In this document: piece by piece, positions 1,993 to 10,672 of the stretch
Layout of the letters: each line of letters starts with the position of its first letter
Position numbering within the stretch: position 1 is the stretch's first letter
IMG/VR virus record: IMGVR_UViG_3300030382_001523
Coordinates: 1-31,852 of that record
Direction: 5' to 3' (one strand)
Source of the DNA: a virus
DNA: 31,852 bases
Notes under the pieces: model-generated
Databases searched by the model: none
Told to the model about the DNA's origin: nothing
Seen by the model: only the letters and a program-made list of their open reading frames with translations
Position numbers and translations under genes: made by a program

Positions 1993-3230
1993 AATGTGAT
2001 CCACCTGATGTTCGGCTTCCCCTTCTGACTTAATTCAGTTAGACCCCAGACCAAGGCATCCAATCGGTCAGGACTTGATCCGCTGTCGGGAGTCCAAGAT
2101 ACCAGCTGCTCCTCCAGTATATTCAAATCCCCGATATGCCAAACCTTGCCCTGCTCGTACAGCGCAGCTATCGGCTCGGCTCTTATCCGCTTCCCCCTGC
2201 TCGCATGAACTGCTGTATACGGTAAATCAGAACGAACAGTCCGCAAAGTATGCTCAACCATATCACCGCCATTGTTGACCTCCCCTATAACCCGGTCAGC
2301 CTGATGGGTTTCATACGCCTCAATGGCCTTCTCGGCCCATGCGTCAGGACTGTATTTCCCACTGTAATCAGCCAGAACATAAAACTGGTCGTCCTCTGCT
2401 CTCCCTACCACTACGATCCCTGTCTCGTCTGAGTCTTTATTCGTGGTAACTGCCGGGTCAATTGCCACCACAACTCGTTCCATATCAGGCACTTCTAGCA
2501 AAGGTTTCGATCGGATCATACTGTTTGTCCACAATGCGCCGGGTACATCGTCCAGCCATTCAGCCATTATTTCCTGACGGCCTATACGTGTCCCACCATA
2601 TTGCTGACGCAAGCGTTCCTGCACAGACTCAGATAACGTCGGGTTATCATAGGTCGTCGCCCTGATTGTCCTCGTACTAGGTAACTCAGAAAGCACCCTG
2701 ACAAAGTGTCGGTTCTTTGGGGTCGTGGTGACTATGGCTTTGGGGTGTTCTCCTAGCCTCAAACCGAACTGCGCCTGATGCCAGCTGGCCTCATTCCATA
2801 ACGCCAGTTCATCAGCCCAGAGCAACGACCATTGTGGCCCGTTCCACCGTGCTGGCTCCTCGCTTCCTAAGAACTTCACATAACCACCATCCTTGTGATG
2901 GGCTTCCCCTATCGATCGGTTATACCTGAACTCGGTCGGGGCTAGATTAATCAGCCCAGTGATACCTTCCGCACATACGTCCCGAGCATCAGCTATCGTG
3001 GGTGCGCCTATTCCTACTCTGGCCTTCCTCCCATATTGGCGAAGATGATCTAACACCGCATGGGTTCCTGCCATCGTCTTTCCAGACCCTCGACCACCTA
3101 GCAACAACCAGACATCCCATACGCCATCAGGTGGAACCTGATGCGGTAACGGCTGCCACTTGTTGACGTTATCATCCCAATAATCAAGGGCCGACAATAA
3201 ACTTGATGTACTATTCCCGATCTGTGTCAT
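1989..3230 (-). CDS. terL: Terminase large subunit
   Basis: The ATP-driven DNA packaging motor, 413 residues. The N-terminal ATPase domain has a Walker A motif GGRGSGKT at residues 45-52, a Walker B LLWADE at 136-141 and a coupling motif TTTPK at 168-172. The C-terminal RNase H-like nuclease domain, which cuts the concatemer, shows Asp258 in VVVAIDPA, Glu317 in IGEVNNGGD and Asp391 in DRLDALVW, the expected acidic triad. Length is typical of siphovirus enzymes. The start overlaps the stop of the ParB-methyltransferase gene by four bases. Both catalytic sites look intact. Confidence 0.96.
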   Translation of the reverse strand: MTQIGNSTSSLLSALDYWDDNVNKWQPLPHQVPPDGVWDVWLLLGGRGSGKTMAGTHAVLDHLRQYGRKARVGIGAPTIADARDVCAEGITGLINLAPTEFRYNRSIGEAHHKDGGYVKFLGSEEPARWNGPQWSLLWADELALWNEASWHQAQFGLRLGEHPKAIVTTTPKNRHFVRVLSELPSTRTIRATTYDNPTLSESVQERLRQQYGGTRIGRQEIMAEWLDDVPGALWTNSMIRSKPLLEVPDMERVVVAIDPAVTTNKDSDETGIVVVGRAEDDQFYVLADYSGKYSPDAWAEKAIEAYETHQADRVIGEVNNGGDMVEHTLRTVRSDLPYTAVHASRGKRIRAEPIAALYEQGKVWHIGDLNILEEQLVSWTPDSGSSPDRLDALVWGLTELSQKGKPNIRWITL

Positions 3231-4750
3231 ACCTTGACCGCCTTCTGCCCCGTGTAATTCTGCCAGCGTTCAATGGCTACCTGTACATATCGTGGTTCTA
3301 TCTCCATCCCGTTACAGATGCGGTCTACCTTCTCGCAAGCAATGAGCGTTGTGCCAGAACCGAGGAAGGGGTCTAGGACGGTTCCGCCGACCCTGCAAGA
3401 CGACTTGACCACCCGAACTACCATGTCCACTGGTTTCGGCGTCTCATGCCCATATCTGTCTTCACCCACTACCCTGTGGAACATCCAAACATCGGTCATG
3501 TTGTCATGGGTATTATCAAAATACGCACGGGTTGCATAGAACTCGCGCTTGAGGTCGTCATAATCGCGCTTGAAGGCTTCATAGTCATGCTTGAAGGCTT
3601 CATAGTCATGCTTGAAGGCTTCATCCCTTGCTGCCTTCTGTAGCTTCTCGTAATGCTCTTGGGTGATAAATCCCCATTGGGATTTCGTGAACCAATGCGA
3701 ATACATACCCACACCACAGATACGCTCGATATCCTTCGGCCCCCACCCCATCTTCTCGCAGTCGGCCTCTAGCTTTGAGCGTATAGGCTCCCAGCCTTCC
3801 CAGTAACTGTCTGCATTGTTGTTGAACCCTTGCTCCCCAAGCATGAAAAACAAACACCGCTCTCCCATTTGTGCATACATTCTCAAGCCTGACATACCAT
3901 CTCTTCCCCACGAAACTCCAGTTACTTGGTTCCAAATAATTTCATTCCTAAACGTCAGACGCTCCGAATCATTCAACCCACCCTGATACCATAACCGCCA
4001 CAAATCCTCAGAATTGCCCCAGATATAAGCACTCGCATTGTCGTCCACATAAGGGCGCAATGCGTTCCACCACAGCATCTGAAACTGGTCAAGGTTCCGG
4101 GCGTGCAAATTGTCGTTCTCGAAATCTTTGTTCATTCCGTATGGTGGGTCTGCATGAACAAGGCTCGCCGTTCTCCCTCCCATAAGTGTCTCGATATCCA
4201 CGGGATTAGTGCTATCCCCACACATCACCCGATGCTCCCCCAACTGGAATAAATCGCCCACCTGTACCCACGCCTCCTCTGGCTCTGGTGGCACTTCGTC
4301 AGGGTCGGTCAACCCGATCTTGGGCTTCGGTATCGCCTCCAATGACTTGAGGCTCCCACCTGCTATAGCGTCCAACATCTCCTGTAAAGCACCGCTCTCT
4401 ACCGTGGTTATCTGGCGCAACGCATCAAATATATCCGTGTCAGCACTAGCCATCGCAGACAATGGGTCTAATGTCATCAAGAGCTTGTTCGCTTCTTCCT
4501 CATTTAAGTCAGTTACCAATACAGGCACTTCAATATCAGGGGTCGTCTCAGCCCTTAAATGCCCATCTATTAGCATTAACCCATCCGGGGTTTCATAAGC
4601 TATCAAAGCGTCTGCATACCCAATCTCCGATAACGCTCCCCTTAAAGCATTCGCCTGACCCACTGGATGCCTCCTCCAGTTCTTAGGATTCGGTAACAAT
4701 TCCGATGCTTTGACCTGCCTGAGTTCCTTGATCCTATTCTTGATCTGCAT
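3227..4750 (-). CDS. ParB-like domain fused to a DNA methyltransferase (N4/N6 type)
   Basis: A 507-residue fusion. Residues 1-115 form a ParB/sulfiredoxin-like nuclease domain with ELLPNPKNWRRHP and IDGHLRAE (61-68). Residues 160-500 form an adenine- or cytosine-N4 methyltransferase of the beta class: the catalytic motif DPPY is at 201-204 and the AdoMet-binding motif DPFLGSGTT at 460-468, the catalytic one first. A CGDS motif precedes DPPY (177-180). Such fusions are common in phages and may protect DNA from host restriction or mark packaging sites. Between the motifs sits an unusual heptad insert (about 377-404) with EAFKHDY repeated. AGGAG lies six bases before the ATG. It sits between the terminase subunits. 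Confidence 0.93.
   Translation of the reverse strand: MQIKNRIKELRQVKASELLPNPKNWRRHPVGQANALRGALSEIGYADALIAYETPDGLMLIDGHLRAETTPDIEVPVLVTDLNEEEANKLLMTLDPLSAMASADTDIFDALRQITTVESGALQEMLDAIAGGSLKSLEAIPKPKIGLTDPDEVPPEPEEAWVQVGDLFQLGEHRVMCGDSTNPVDIETLMGGRTASLVHADPPYGMNKDFENDNLHARNLDQFQMLWWNALRPYVDDNASAYIWGNSEDLWRLWYQGGLNDSERLTFRNEIIWNQVTGVSWGRDGMSGLRMYAQMGERCLFFMLGEQGFNNNADSYWEGWEPIRSKLEADCEKMGWGPKDIERICGVGMYSHWFTKSQWGFITQEHYEKLQKAARDEAFKHDYEAFKHDYEAFKRDYDDLKREFYATRAYFDNTHDNMTDVWMFHRVVGEDRYGHETPKPVDMVVRVVKSSCRVGGTVLDPFLGSGTTLIACEKVDRICNGMEIEPRYVQVAIERWQNYTGQKAVKV
3547..3624 (-). repeat. 21-bp tandem repeat encoding a heptad coiled-coil insert
   Basis: Three copies of a 21-base unit are near identical (3568-3588, 3589-3609, partial 3610-3624), with a diverged fourth copy at 3547-3567. 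Each unit encodes seven residues (EAFKHDY, EAFKHDY, EAFKRDY, DDLKREF), in phase with an alpha-helical heptad. The two full copies are identical at the DNA level, so they are recent or prone to slippage, and copy number may vary between relatives. Confidence 0.93.
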
Positions 4751-4764
4751 GAGAGACTCCTAAA

Positions 4765-4953
4765 TTAGGCAACCCAAAAATTTGGAAAAATCTGTGGGGC
4801 AAATTGATCCCGTGGTATCTGGTTCGCTGTGTAACTTAATATATGTCCGGCCCTGTGGATTCCTTTTGTACAGTGGCTAGAACGCTCACTACGGGCGTTG
4901 TTACTGTTCTTCAATGGTTTGATACCACATTTATCTTTGAAGTAGTTTCTCAT
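4765..4953 (-). CDS. Hypothetical small protein, 62 residues
   Basis: A short open frame between the small terminase candidate and the methyltransferase. The ATG overlaps the preceding stop (TAATG) and a GGAG lies about nine bases upstream, which supports translation. The product is basic (MRNYFKDKCGIKPLKNSNN) with no motif, membrane segment or recognised family. Its composition is less typical of a folded protein than its neighbours, so it may be a minor peptide or a spurious frame. Confidence 0.45.
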   Translation of the reverse strand: MRNYFKDKCGIKPLKNSNNARSERSSHCTKGIHRAGHILSYTANQIPRDQFAPQIFPNFWVA

Positions 4954-5459
4954 TAGACCACTCCTGCAAACCTCTCCTGTCCTAGCTTGTCTAAACTAGA
5001 CAGAAGCATCGGTGCTTCTGGTGCAGCACTGTGGTACTGCCTGTAGATATCGATGAAGTCCTTGATTGCTTGGTTCCACGAGATGACGTCAACCCTGATC
5101 CTTGCCTCGATTTGCTTCGGTGCATCAAGGCCCATAAGAGAAGCCCTACGCTCTTCTATACGTAGGGCTGTACTGATAGCAGTAAGGTCGCCTGTCTGCA
5201 CCTGTGGCTGGATCGACAGGAGCATCCTGTCAAGTCTTCCTAGTGCTACCTGTCGTTCGGCCTCGTGGCCCCCGGTAGCAAAGGCAGAGGCAGTTAACTC
5301 TCGCATGATGGCCTTGTATGCGCCACCCTCATTAGCGTAGCCAAGCTGTTGTGCTATCTGGGATAGCGTAGCTCCTGCTTGTCTTAGGTTGATTGCTTGC
5401 TGACCCTTGAGCCTTACAGCTACGCTTTGCCTGCGACTTGCGCCTGTTTTCCTAGCCAT
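4953..5459 (-). CDS. Terminase small subunit candidate (helix-turn-helix)
   Basis: A 168-residue protein with an N-terminal helix-turn-helix at about residues 20-52 (QAINLRQAGATLSQIAQQLG) followed by a helical region containing RRASLMGLDAPKQIE. From memory, the RRxxLxGLDAP motif after an HTH is common in small terminase or DNA-recognition proteins encoded near phage terminases. Its role would be recognising the packaging site and recruiting the large subunit. The start codon lies inside the end of the upstream nuclease gene (40-base overlap). The large terminase is two genes downstream rather than adjacent. It could instead be a transcriptional regulator. Confidence 0.7.
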   Translation of the reverse strand: MARKTGASRRQSVAVRLKGQQAINLRQAGATLSQIAQQLGYANEGGAYKAIMRELTASAFATGGHEAERQVALGRLDRMLLSIQPQVQTGDLTAISTALRIEERRASLMGLDAPKQIEARIRVDVISWNQAIKDFIDIYRQYHSAAPEAPMLLSSLDKLGQERFAGVV

Positions 5460-5929
5460 AGTCTTTCCTCACCGACGATAGATTGAATCTGCGAGATGGT
5501 TCCATTGATACATTGAAGTGCCACCCAGTGACCAGAAAGATGCACGTAGCATAGCACCTTAGCCCCGTTTGGTACACTTGTGAGCGTCTTAGCACTAGTC
5601 TTGAACACTGACTTAACCCTAGACAGGGCATCGGGCTGATAGGTGCGTGACTTCACTTCTATAAGCATAAGTTCGTCTTCAGACCATGCGATGATATCCG
5701 GGTAAGCAGACAGGTGAGTCCTTCTCACTTCATAGCCTTTTTCCTCTAGCAGTTGTTGAAGTAATGCTTCGGCCTTATTGCCTTTGCTTCTTGCTGACCT
5801 GTTGGGAGTTTTCTTTTTAGGTTGTTTTGGTTTTATTTCATCGGGAAACAACTGCCTAAGGGTTTGAGGGCTATAGGTATCATATAATAGCCCTATTTGG
5901 TGACTCTTCGTATAACTAGGTTTTCTCAT
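5420..5929 (-). CDS. PD-(D/E)XK nuclease, Holliday junction resolvase-like
   Basis: A 169-residue protein with a lysine-rich N-terminus (KPKQPKKKTPNRSARSKGNK) and a compact nuclease core. Seen motifs: KGNKAEALLQQLL with Glu54, a strand ending in YPDIIAW with Asp78, and LIEVKSR with Glu91 and Lys93, the classical E...PD...ExK arrangement of archaeal Hjc-type resolvases and related nucleases. It may resolve branched DNA before packaging, which fits its place upstream of the terminase genes. An AAGGA lies about eight bases before the ATG. It is the first gene after the iteron/hairpin region. A structure-specific nuclease other than a resolvase is possible. Confidence 0.8.
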   Translation of the reverse strand: MRKPSYTKSHQIGLLYDTYSPQTLRQLFPDEIKPKQPKKKTPNRSARSKGNKAEALLQQLLEEKGYEVRRTHLSAYPDIIAWSEDELMLIEVKSRTYQPDALSRVKSVFKTSAKTLTSVPNGAKVLCYVHLSGHWVALQCINGTISQIQSIVGEERLWLGKQAQVAGKA

Positions 5930-5964
5930 AATGCGGTTTCCTTCAATCCTTATATATATATTAT

Positions 5965-6113
5965 GTTGAGATGTTGTTGAGAGAAGGGGTCTTTAAGAGA
6001 CCCCATCTCAACAACAATCTCAACAATTAAATTTAGATACAAATATTGCTGTTACGTTGTTGAGATTTTAAGACGTTGAGATTTGTTGAGAAATGTTGAC
6101 GTTTTGTTGAGAT
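5965..6113. repeat. Iteron-like cluster of GTTGAGAT repeats
   Basis: Six exact copies of the octamer GTTGAGAT lie here: plus-strand copies at 5965-5972, 6059-6066, 6075-6082 and 6106-6113, and inverted copies at 6005-6012 and 6017-6024. Near copies are at 5976-5983, 6085-6092 and 6095-6100. The region is AT-rich and has an ATATATATATTA stretch next to it (about 5950-5962). No gene occupies 5930-6129. Clustered short repeats plus an AT-rich segment are typical of a replication origin, of an operator array or of a packaging site. Confidence 0.85.
5973..6015. other. Large imperfect hairpin inside the iteron region
   Basis: The arm GTTGTTGAGA (5973-5982) pairs with TCTCAACAAC (6006-6015), and the inner arm GGGGTCT (5986-5992) pairs with AGACCCC (5998-6004), with a five-base loop and a small asymmetric bulge. 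Seventeen base pairs form in 43 bases. There is no T-run at either side, so a simple terminator is unlikely. The outer arms are themselves iteron copies, which suggests a protein-binding dyad or an origin hairpin. Confidence 0.8.
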
Positions 6114-6129
6114 GCTATTTTAGGGTTGA

Positions 6130-6507
6130 TTAGGCATCTATTCTCTCCGAATTATTCGTTACCATTTTTGCCTCCCTCCAGTACATAAAAGGAAGCGCAT
6201 ATTGCTCCCCCCATTCGGTAGTATGCAGCCTTCCTGACGAATCCCTCCAAGATAGTTCCCTAATAAGTGATGTTGGAGCGATATATGACTTGCTGTGCGT
6301 TCTTTCCCAGATCATCACCCACTCGCACTCAGGGTAATACTCATCGAGATACATCTTGTCCACTGTGAAGGCTCCTCCTGCCTTCCACAGACGATGGCTC
6401 TGGTATACCCACTTAGTATAGGTCTTCGATTGGGGGTCGTACTCGCCGATGGGTTTCATGCCGTGAATAGTGCTGATCGCTCGTCTTCGTCCATACCCTG
6501 CTTTCAT
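6130..6507 (-). CDS. Hypothetical protein, 125 residues
   Basis: Not recognised. The ATG at 6507 follows GGAGG with a five-base spacer, a strong site. The protein is basic at the N-terminus (MKAGYGRRRAIST), rich in Trp and Tyr (KWVYQSHRLWKAGG, EYYPECEWVMIWER), and has no membrane segment. The density of aromatic residues suggests a folded globular domain, perhaps binding nucleic acid, but nothing identifies it. It lies between the structured non-coding stretch and the iteron region, and probably belongs to the replication/accessory transcript. Confidence 0.75.
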   Translation of the reverse strand: MKAGYGRRRAISTIHGMKPIGEYDPQSKTYTKWVYQSHRLWKAGGAFTVDKMYLDEYYPECEWVMIWERTHSKSYIAPTSLIRELSWRDSSGRLHTTEWGEQYALPFMYWREAKMVTNNSERIDA

Positions 6508-7114: not shown

Positions 7115-8596
7115 TCACCATGCTATGTCCGTTCTCCTATTTGGACGCAAGTCAGCGGACGGAATTACCTGAAAACCTGTTCCTTCGTTTTCTGGTATCG
7201 GCTCCTCTTCGATATATCCGTCTTCGGCAGGGTCTTCCCACCCTGCAGGGCTGTTGGAGCAGAGCCAGATCGGTTTCGGTATAGGGTCGCCCTCGTTTTT
7301 GGCGTAAGGGTATACATGAAGCACTTCTGGGAGTCTTTTGTATGTCCCGGTGTTGTACCGCAACGCCCAGACGTAGTTACGCAAAGTTTCGCTCTTTGAC
7401 TTGTTCAGGTTGAGCAATTCTTCAATCTCGTCTATCCTAACCTTGTTAGTGGGCGTTTCTCTGACGAGTTTGTCTATCTGTTGCCACAACCGGGCGAATT
7501 TCCTGAGTTCTGGGATGACTGCCGGGTCTTCAGGGCTGAGAGTTACGCTCTCAGGATCGTGCAACTCGTCTCCTTCAAAGGTCAGTCGGAAACCGAGCAT
7601 CCCCATCGCAGGGCCGTCGTTCTCCTTCTGTTGTTCAAGCTGCAAGGACAACACCCCACGGCCTTCGCTTGGCACGCTTCGTAATCTCCACATATTCCTT
7701 GCATTGGCCCTGATATAGGTACTGCCAAAATACTCATCGCCCTTATTGGTATGGTGGATGATCAGACACGGCAAATTGATCTGCCTGATCGCCTCAAAAA
7801 ACAGACCCACCCCTTCTTCATCGGTGATGCTGCCACCAACTGCCCTCGCCAGAGAGTCGATAATCAAGAACTGGACATCATAGCGGACGATGTAGTCTTG
7901 CAGTGCGTCCTTGCTATCATACAACGAGACCTCCCCTATTCTATACAGGATGGGGTCACCCTCAAGATTCAACCCTTTATCGACACGTTTCAAGCGTCGC
8001 ATCATGTTGCTTTTTTTCGTCTCGTAGTCGATCAGGAGAACGTTGCCCTTTACCGTATCAAGTCCGCAGATCGGAACACCGTGCTGGATGGCCTGTCCTA
8101 AGATGATCGAAAGATACGATTTGCCACTTCCTGAGTCGCCGTAGATCATATTAACCTCCTCAGACAGCAACCCCAGCACCCTCCACGCCTCTTCGTCGTA
8201 CAACCCCTCTTCTTTGTACAAGTTAACTGGTGGGTCACCTGCTTGCCGGGTCTCAAGGATTTGCTCCATAGCGTCTGAGATCGTGGCCTCCCAGTCATTG
8301 GTTACCACTGCCGACGTTATCCCGAAAACCCCCTGCATCCCGGTGTCTCCCGTGCGTTTATCACCCCTGACCCTCTCTTCGATAGATTTGCCAATCTTTT
8401 TCCTGCTGGCCTCTGTCGTGATCTGGGTACGCCCCTTGAATACGGTATACCGATCTCCGTCGAGTCCTTTTGCGGTGACCGTGATATGCCCTCCACCTTC
8501 AAAGTGCCTTAGATGTATCTGCTTGGCTATAACGTGAACCCCAATGGATTCGTCCTCGTACGTATAAACATCGTATTTTTTTGTAACGCTGCTCAC
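7115..8596 (-). CDS. RepA-like RecA-fold ATPase / replicative helicase
   Basis: A 493-residue protein with a RecA-type ATPase core of the RepA/AAA_25 kind. The Walker A motif GDSGSGKS is at residues 153-160, a VLLIDYE strand at about 186-192, the Walker B FLIIDSLAR at 243-251 and the sensor-like LIIHHTNK at 278-285, followed by GSTYIRANAR. The N-terminal 120 residues look beta-rich and may bind DNA; the C-terminus has a helical, winged-helix-like part (about 370-410) and an acidic tail. It probably unwinds DNA at the phage origin, relying on a host polymerase. The start is a GTG after AAAGGAG, overlapping the preceding stop by four bases (GTGA). Confidence 0.85.
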   Translation of the reverse strand: MSSVTKKYDVYTYEDESIGVHVIAKQIHLRHFEGGGHITVTAKGLDGDRYTVFKGRTQITTEASRKKIGKSIEERVRGDKRTGDTGMQGVFGITSAVVTNDWEATISDAMEQILETRQAGDPPVNLYKEEGLYDEEAWRVLGLLSEEVNMIYGDSGSGKSYLSIILGQAIQHGVPICGLDTVKGNVLLIDYETKKSNMMRRLKRVDKGLNLEGDPILYRIGEVSLYDSKDALQDYIVRYDVQFLIIDSLARAVGGSITDEEGVGLFFEAIRQINLPCLIIHHTNKGDEYFGSTYIRANARNMWRLRSVPSEGRGVLSLQLEQQKENDGPAMGMLGFRLTFEGDELHDPESVTLSPEDPAVIPELRKFARLWQQIDKLVRETPTNKVRIDEIEELLNLNKSKSETLRNYVWALRYNTGTYKRLPEVLHVYPYAKNEGDPIPKPIWLCSNSPAGWEDPAEDGYIEEEPIPENEGTGFQVIPSADLRPNRRTDIAW

Positions 8597-10377: not shown

Positions 10378-10611
10378 TTAGTGATTTAGTAGAACCCACT
10401 GCCTCTCGGCAGGGGTGAGTGTATCGAGTGATTTCGGTATACCTGAAATCATCATTCGGCGGATCAAAACATCGTAGGGTTCATTGTTCCGCTTGTACTG
10501 GCTTAGAAATTCCTTCGTTGACCTTGAACAAGGTATCCGTGCTTCTGCCCTTCCAGAAAGCTCCGACGGACTATCCTCGATACAACTTGATCCGTATATA
10601 GGTCGTCCCAT
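10378..10611 (-). CDS. Ribbon-helix-helix-like small protein, 77 residues
   Basis: The ATG at 10611 has AAAGGAGG eight bases upstream; a GTG nine bases further upstream overlaps this site and is unlikely. After an N-terminal arm, RIPCSRSTKEFLSQYK...NEPYDVLIRRMM follows the pattern of a ribbon-helix-helix DNA-binding domain (strand with alternating residues, then two helices with a YDxxIRR motif). Such proteins are repressors or antitoxins. No toxin partner is recognisable next to it. It is the best candidate here for a small regulator that could bind the nearby operators. Confidence 0.6.
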   Translation of the reverse strand: MGRPIYGSSCIEDSPSELSGRAEARIPCSRSTKEFLSQYKRNNEPYDVLIRRMMISGIPKSLDTLTPAERQWVLLNH

Positions 10612-10672
10612 GCACCGCACCTCCTTTCTGCATAGATGAAATTACTTTACAACAAACTAACTTGGCGAACAA

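Follow-up and report, generated by a model that had tools for sequence, protein, structure and literature searches.

The window analysed here, meaning the whole stretch of DNA, comprises the 31,852 bases of an IMG/VR virus record, and essentially all of its genes lie on the minus strand. In the direction of transcription, the upstream part encodes a DUF932 protein (TIGR03299), a small ribbon-helix-helix (RHH) candidate, a protein that we read as SSB-like, a PD-(D/E)XK exonuclease, an AAA_25 ATPase, and the products of two small genes. A non-coding gap follows (Table 1), after which come the genes for an Hjc-like resolvase, the small terminase (TerS), a ParB-methyltransferase fusion, the large terminase (TerL), and the portal. 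This agrees with an earlier note on this DNA, which had placed the repeats described below between the accessory genes and the resolvase and terminase genes. The ParB-methyltransferase fusion (3227-4750) carries a tandem repeat of the EAFKHDY type at about residues 370-395, and the middle part of the gene is variable or broken up in several relatives. Relative to L011 and G008, the contig ends (1-440 and 31674-31852) lack about 1.2 kb from between the portal and capsid genes, and the record therefore probably represents a permuted genome that is almost but not quite complete.

Table 1. Features of the iteron-and-hairpin element and of the neighbouring genes in the window.
Feature	Position	Strand	Remarks
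Whole-element gap, non-coding, 67% AT, 200 bp	5930..6129		Between orf125 (6130-6507) and the Hjc-like nuclease gene (5420-5929)
Direct-repeat array, minus strand reading ATCTCAACA	6059..6113	-	Exact copies 6059-6066, 6075-6082, 6106-6113; near copies 6085-6092, 6095-6102
AT-rich spacer, array to inverted copies	6026..6058		35 nt motif to motif
Hairpin 5' arm, two inverted iterons	6005..6025	-	6005-6012, 6017-6024
Hairpin tip, GC-rich, GGGGTCT-CTTAA-AGACCCC	5986..6004	-	Letters vary among relatives, palindrome kept
Hairpin 3' arm	5964..5985	+	Iteron 5965-5972 and near copy 5976-5983
Hjc-like Holliday-junction resolvase, PD-(D/E)XK	5420..5929	-	Directly downstream of the element; Hjc structures matched by profile, E 1e-6 to 1e-3
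AAA_25 ATPase, RepA-like hexameric-helicase fold by model	7115..8596	-	AAA_25 family; C-terminal region predicted helical
Small protein, ribbon-helix-helix candidate	10378..10620	-	Candidate from sequence pattern; homologues in four relatives
Small terminase subunit TerS	4953..5459	-	Homology to annotated small terminases of Arthrobacter phages

This gap, bounded by the flanking ORFs, is richer in AT than the record as a whole (67% against 50%), and it contains six exact copies of the octamer GTTGAGAT in both orientations, at 5965(+), 6005(-), 6017(-), 6059(+), 6075(+), and 6106(+). Positions 5976 and 6085 hold copies with one mismatch, and GTTGACGT, read from the sequence at 6095, is a weaker one. 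A search of the whole record found no exact copy outside the gap; the chance expectation for the record is 1.28, and six copies were reached in none of 100 shuffles. When the gap itself was shuffled 2000 times, no 8-mer attained the count of the octamer. Outside the gap, copies with one mismatch showed no enrichment, the total being 21 against an expected 28. The six exact octamers and three near copies that the earlier note had reported from a 200-base AT-rich non-coding gap are thus real, with counts and shuffles in agreement, and the search for further copies that it had proposed leaves all exact ones confined to this gap. In the direct-repeat array, the copies lie 10-16 bp apart. By folding positions 5961-6030 as DNA, an imperfect hairpin of 26 pairs was obtained on the minus strand (5964-6025; MFE -23.4 kcal/mol, z -8.9), the arms of which are iterons in opposite orientation and the tip of which is a 7-bp stem (GGGGTCT/AGACCCC). 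An imperfect hairpin with iteron arms had been described before as 17 bp long; the arms are as described, while the length has to be revised, because that stem belongs to the longer hairpin of about 26 bp.

Relatives were sought in IMG/VR by a scan with the large terminase, which gave 25 related contigs, and by alignment-based scans with TerS, the nuclease, the ATPase, and TerL, which gave further relatives. Single-sequence scans of IMG/VR with the window nuclease and with the window ATPase returned no relatives, nor did megablast of the phage collection, and tblastn of the L006 nuclease gave no match in the phage collection. Alignment-based scans of 84,980 species genomes revealed no prophage relative. 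The set used for conservation comprises ten distinct IMG/VR relatives with the nuclease gene, together with near-duplicates, and hence 11 distinct copies of the element including that of the window. In the ten distinct relatives, the same kind of element is found directly upstream of the nuclease gene or with one or two small genes between, and in the window as well as in the relatives there is one repeat cluster per genome, in a single non-coding region. An IMG/VR scan with a narrow DNA pattern (inverted arm and G-run) matched only within this clade, and a hairpin-plus-repeat screen of the TerS-adjacent or end regions in the records of cultured relatives (Prairie, Sonali, Jace, Blett, Rizwana, Pam4) found no such element. 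An open-access literature search gave no description of this element, under another name either.

The exact octamer is absent from the elements of the relatives. Their iteron unit is ATCACAACA or ATTACAACA in place of ATCTCAACA, with TGTTGTGAT on the opposite strand, and the variants TTACCACAACA (L013 and L016), ATCACAA (L019), and CTACAACA (L024) also occur. Within each genome, all iteron copies share that genome's own version, as is expected if one protein must recognise all of them. Judged from these sequences, the conserved recognition unit is different from the octamer named in the earlier note. The conservation of the gap among relatives, which that note had made a point to check, is therefore to be answered for the architecture and not for the octamer itself. 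The common order in the direction of transcription is a direct-repeat array, a short AT-rich spacer, two inverted copies, a hairpin with a GC-rich tip, further direct copies, and then the gene. The spacing of the CAAC array (12-5-5-9) is identical in five relatives (L006, L023, L022, L008, L011). Six relatives have 22-23 nt from the array to the first inverted copy, compared with 35 nt in the window and 13 nt in L019. As these distances differ by about one helical turn, they suggest that the two groups of sites would have to face the same side of the helix. Given that ten relatives keep the layout with different letters, the iteron-and-hairpin element is, on comparative grounds, a real functional site. 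Two near-identical phages (L005:1-523 and L006:1-520) carry a different small gene between the element and the nuclease gene, so accessory genes are swapped right beside the element.

The hairpins of all 11 elements beat their shuffles, with z from -5.3 to -9.5. Among seven distinct 7-bp tip stems, 49 of 49 positions are paired, against 37 when the arms are dealt anew; this value is somewhat overstated because the stems were picked for pairing, but they occupy the same place in every element. Both sides have changed at four of the seven pair positions. When the hairpins were folded as RNA, G-U was found in only 6 of 290 pairs. An Rfam search of the element gave no family above the gathering score, and no T-run follows the GC stem on either strand. 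A structured RNA element was rejected on the first two of these results and an intrinsic transcription terminator on the third. Because the tip stems change and yet stay paired, with almost no G-U, selection acts on the DNA structure, and we read the locus as a DNA element, given also the Rfam and T-run results.

A homologue of the resolvase follows the element in 11 of 11 distinct copies, and in the window a palindrome capable of forming a four-way junction adjoins the resolvase gene. The ATPase gene is found upstream in every element-bearing contig that reaches it (the window, G006, G009, G010, L008, L016, L033, L023), and the longer of these contigs also carry the exonuclease, SSB-like, RHH-candidate, and DUF932 genes. 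The model of the ATPase (pLDDT 73) has a RecA/DnaB-type core, and its top structural matches are three entries of RSF1010 RepA with Z of 18.5-19.0, tied with Rad51, RadA, and DnaB within about 1.5 Z; the C-terminal region, predicted to be helical, may form a winged helix. A profile search of solved structures with the ATPase or the TerS alignment gave nothing significant. The model of the RHH candidate has two helices, as expected for this fold, and a fold search with it gave no match at Z of 2 or more. The RHH candidate is a possible binder of the iterons, and TerS is an alternative candidate reader of the element. TerS falls in PHROG 645, which is labelled 'Rnase E'; its members here and in Arthrobacter and Gordonia phages are small terminase subunits, judging from their position and from the annotations of others.

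In the window and its relatives, the element lies 0.5-1.4 kb upstream of TerS, and comparing lineages with similar terminases shows how it is distributed. A 41-kb contig (G002) whose TerS and TerL are 59 and 67% identical to those of the window is without the helicase and resolvase genes, and a search of it found no CAACA-type cluster and no comparable hairpin with repeats. This relative (L064-L066) carries sugar-nucleotide, aminotransferase, radical SAM, and transketolase-like genes. The element is absent in the 4 kb upstream of a TerS that is 59% identical to that of the window (L036-L038), whereas it is present in L060, with a TerS that is just 34% identical. This points to an element that tracks the helicase/resolvase module rather than TerS, the negative side comprising one lineage. 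In L040 and L039 (TerS 50%), another AT-rich gap with a different hairpin, CCCTATAC-GTTA-GTATAGGG (z -3.6), occupies the same place, so a link to the packaging module may exist. In L040 (3060-3150), the gap is AT-rich and 500 bp long, with the hairpin CCCTATACgttaGTATAGGG, between divergent genes and TerS, and the L039 contig, of the same kind, begins beside it. A more distant clade (L129, L130, and L137; TerL 53%) has a remote AAA_25 homologue, directly after which TGCGYA repeats in both orientations and a hairpin are found (L129:4140-4662, L130, L137:1014-1166; z -4.5 in L129 and -2.2 in L137). In L129, a typical SSB gene and more TGCGYA repeats come after the hairpin, the repeats flanking the SSB gene in both L129 and L130, and the probable TerS gene lies more than 1 kb beyond the cluster. 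If analogous, this cluster would tie such elements to the helicase gene; it may not be homologous and is suggestive only.

We hypothesize, with a probability of about one half, that the element is the replication origin of the phage, of the type that combines iterons with a stem-loop. The earlier note had offered an origin, an operator array, or a packaging site. An iteron-and-hairpin DNA element does recur in the ten relatives; the origin is the best supported of the three readings because the element appears to track the helicase/resolvase module and not the small terminase, and packaging has been weakened. The origin reading draws on the anatomy, the compensatory conservation, the place between the replication and packaging genes, and the co-occurrence with the helicase and the resolvase. 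Moreover, the concerted change of the iteron from ATCTCAACA to ATCACAACA across the 11 copies is as expected for the sites of one binding protein, and the array-to-arm distances of about whole helical turns also count in its favour. So do the top structural matches of the ATPase to RepA, the helicase of an origin made up of iterons and ssi stem-loops (PMC4234260), although the tie with Rad51, RadA, and DnaB counts against this point. We infer that a phage DNA-binding protein, either the RHH candidate or the C-terminal domain of the helicase, would coat the phased ATCTCAACA iterons on both sides, that the adjacent AT-rich DNA would open, and that the palindrome would be exposed as a hairpin on the single strands. 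The RepA-like AAA_25 helicase could be loaded at the exposed hairpin, to be followed by host primase and polymerase, and the neighbouring Hjc-like resolvase would handle the branched products of replication. The element lies 0-0.6 kb from the resolvase gene but about 1-5 kb from the helicase gene, and it occupies the usual place of packaging sites, both of which count against an origin. Neither a RepC-type initiator nor a primase was identified, and no initiator was found with Pfam. The GC-skew analysis suggested in the earlier note did not show a clear switch at the element, either in the window or in relatives; third-codon skew rises weakly after it in several genomes, mixed with gene content.

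The location before the resolvase-TerS-(methyltransferase)-TerL genes in all relatives would also suit a packaging start site (pac or cos), at which TerS would bind the iterons, the large subunit would make the initial cut within the hairpin or close to it, and headful packaging would then proceed. The pac site of P1 likewise clusters short repeats, seven TGATCA/G hexamers in 161 bp (PMC10028697), and the L040 lineage has its own hairpin at the corresponding place. Among the relatives, 23 contigs hold TerS, and 10 of them stop no more than 1.1 kb upstream of it where 2.9 would be expected (p 1.6e-4); three of these ten begin inside or at the element (L005, L006, L060). However, this excess takes in element-free lineages (L035, L037) and would arise just as well if assemblies broke at a variable region that holds a long hairpin, and many contigs pass straight through the element, which argues against a fixed end. 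Together with the way the element parts from TerS in L036-L038 and L060, this makes the packaging reading possible but doubtful. The palindrome of 25-30 bp, which is under selection, and the resolvase homologue directly after each copy could instead mean that the palindrome extrudes as a four-way junction, driven by the bound iterons, and is cut by the phage nuclease for concatemer resolution or as an entry point for packaging or replication. A relative of Hjc, SIRV2 Hjr, cuts plasmid-borne hairpin four-way junctions to give linear DNA with nicked hairpin ends (PMC3157427). Such a role would leave the one-sided repeat array unexplained, and contigs cross the palindrome into different genes on either side, which means that most molecules do not acquire ends there. 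In addition, Hjc-type enzymes act on any four-way junction, which makes a dedicated site unnecessary, and phages commonly carry resolvases for debranching. We regard a cruciform target of this kind as unlikely. The fuller scheme, in which the resolvase would cut a dedicated cruciform extruded via iteron-bound proteins, one site would couple replication or concatemer resolution to packaging, and resolvase, palindrome, and iterons would co-evolve, appears quite unlikely.

An operator array with a leader hairpin that controls the resolvase-terminase (late) operon is likewise improbable. It would fit an element placed directly before the first gene of the packaging operon, within 10-30 nt of the ribosome-binding site of that gene in several relatives, and in two relatives (L005:152-523 and L022:1-240) accessory genes next to it code for proteins that resemble the RNA polymerase alpha-CTD (Pfam E 1e-7) and sigma-70 region 4 (E 1.5e-14). 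On the other hand, no promoter was found above shuffle expectation and no T-run terminator, other genes separate the element from the operon in L005, L006, L008, and L011, the near absence of G-U pairs and the Rfam result speak against an RNA element, and the length and symmetry of the palindrome exceed those of a normal operator. A protelomerase site was also considered from the palindrome.

Initiation sites of uncultured phages are almost never identified, and the element described here is a testable candidate for a whole clade. The candidate rests on three features taken together, namely iterons, fixed spacing, and a palindrome whose shape persists although its letters change, and it provides an instance of a repeat unit altered concertedly in every copy (ATCACAACA to ATCTCAACA). 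As an origin, it would add a phage case tied to a RepA-like helicase to the iteron-plus-stem-loop kind; a resolvase or packaging site would imply a more unusual mechanism. The lambda-type origin, with O-protein iterons and AT-rich DNA, is alike in having iterons beside an AT-rich stretch in the replication region of a phage. The iterons of lambda are longer, lie inside the O gene, and are without a large hairpin. The origins of geminiviruses and circoviruses also have iterons next to a hairpin, but their loop carries a conserved nick nonamer and they use an HUH Rep protein. Here no HUH gene was recognised among the families scanned, and a geminivirus-like nick origin was set aside because the loops are 3-5 nt long and variable. 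In oriV of RSF1010 (IncQ), RepC acts on iterons, RepA opens the DNA, and the stem-loops ssiA and ssiB are exposed for priming (PMC4234260). The likeness lies in iterons beside stem-loops and, by the model, in a candidate RepA-fold helicase in the same replication module; the iterons here are short (8-9 bp) and flank a single palindrome in both orientations, neither a RepC-type initiator nor a RepB' primase was found, and the genome is that of a tailed phage. The stem-loop origin of pRN1, which is experimentally required, lies beside a replication gene and is conserved in shape and not in sequence (PMC4234260), and so resembles the long stem-loop found here near a replication gene; its authors propose such origins for some phages too. 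pRN1 is without iterons and has a primase-helicase fusion, whereas the repeat array is always present here. By comparison with P1 pac, where short repeats are clustered over about 160 bp near the small terminase gene, the repeats of P1 are Dam sites inside pacA and the available part of the account describes no conserved hairpin (PMC10028697), whereas the element here lies two genes upstream and does not appear to track TerS.
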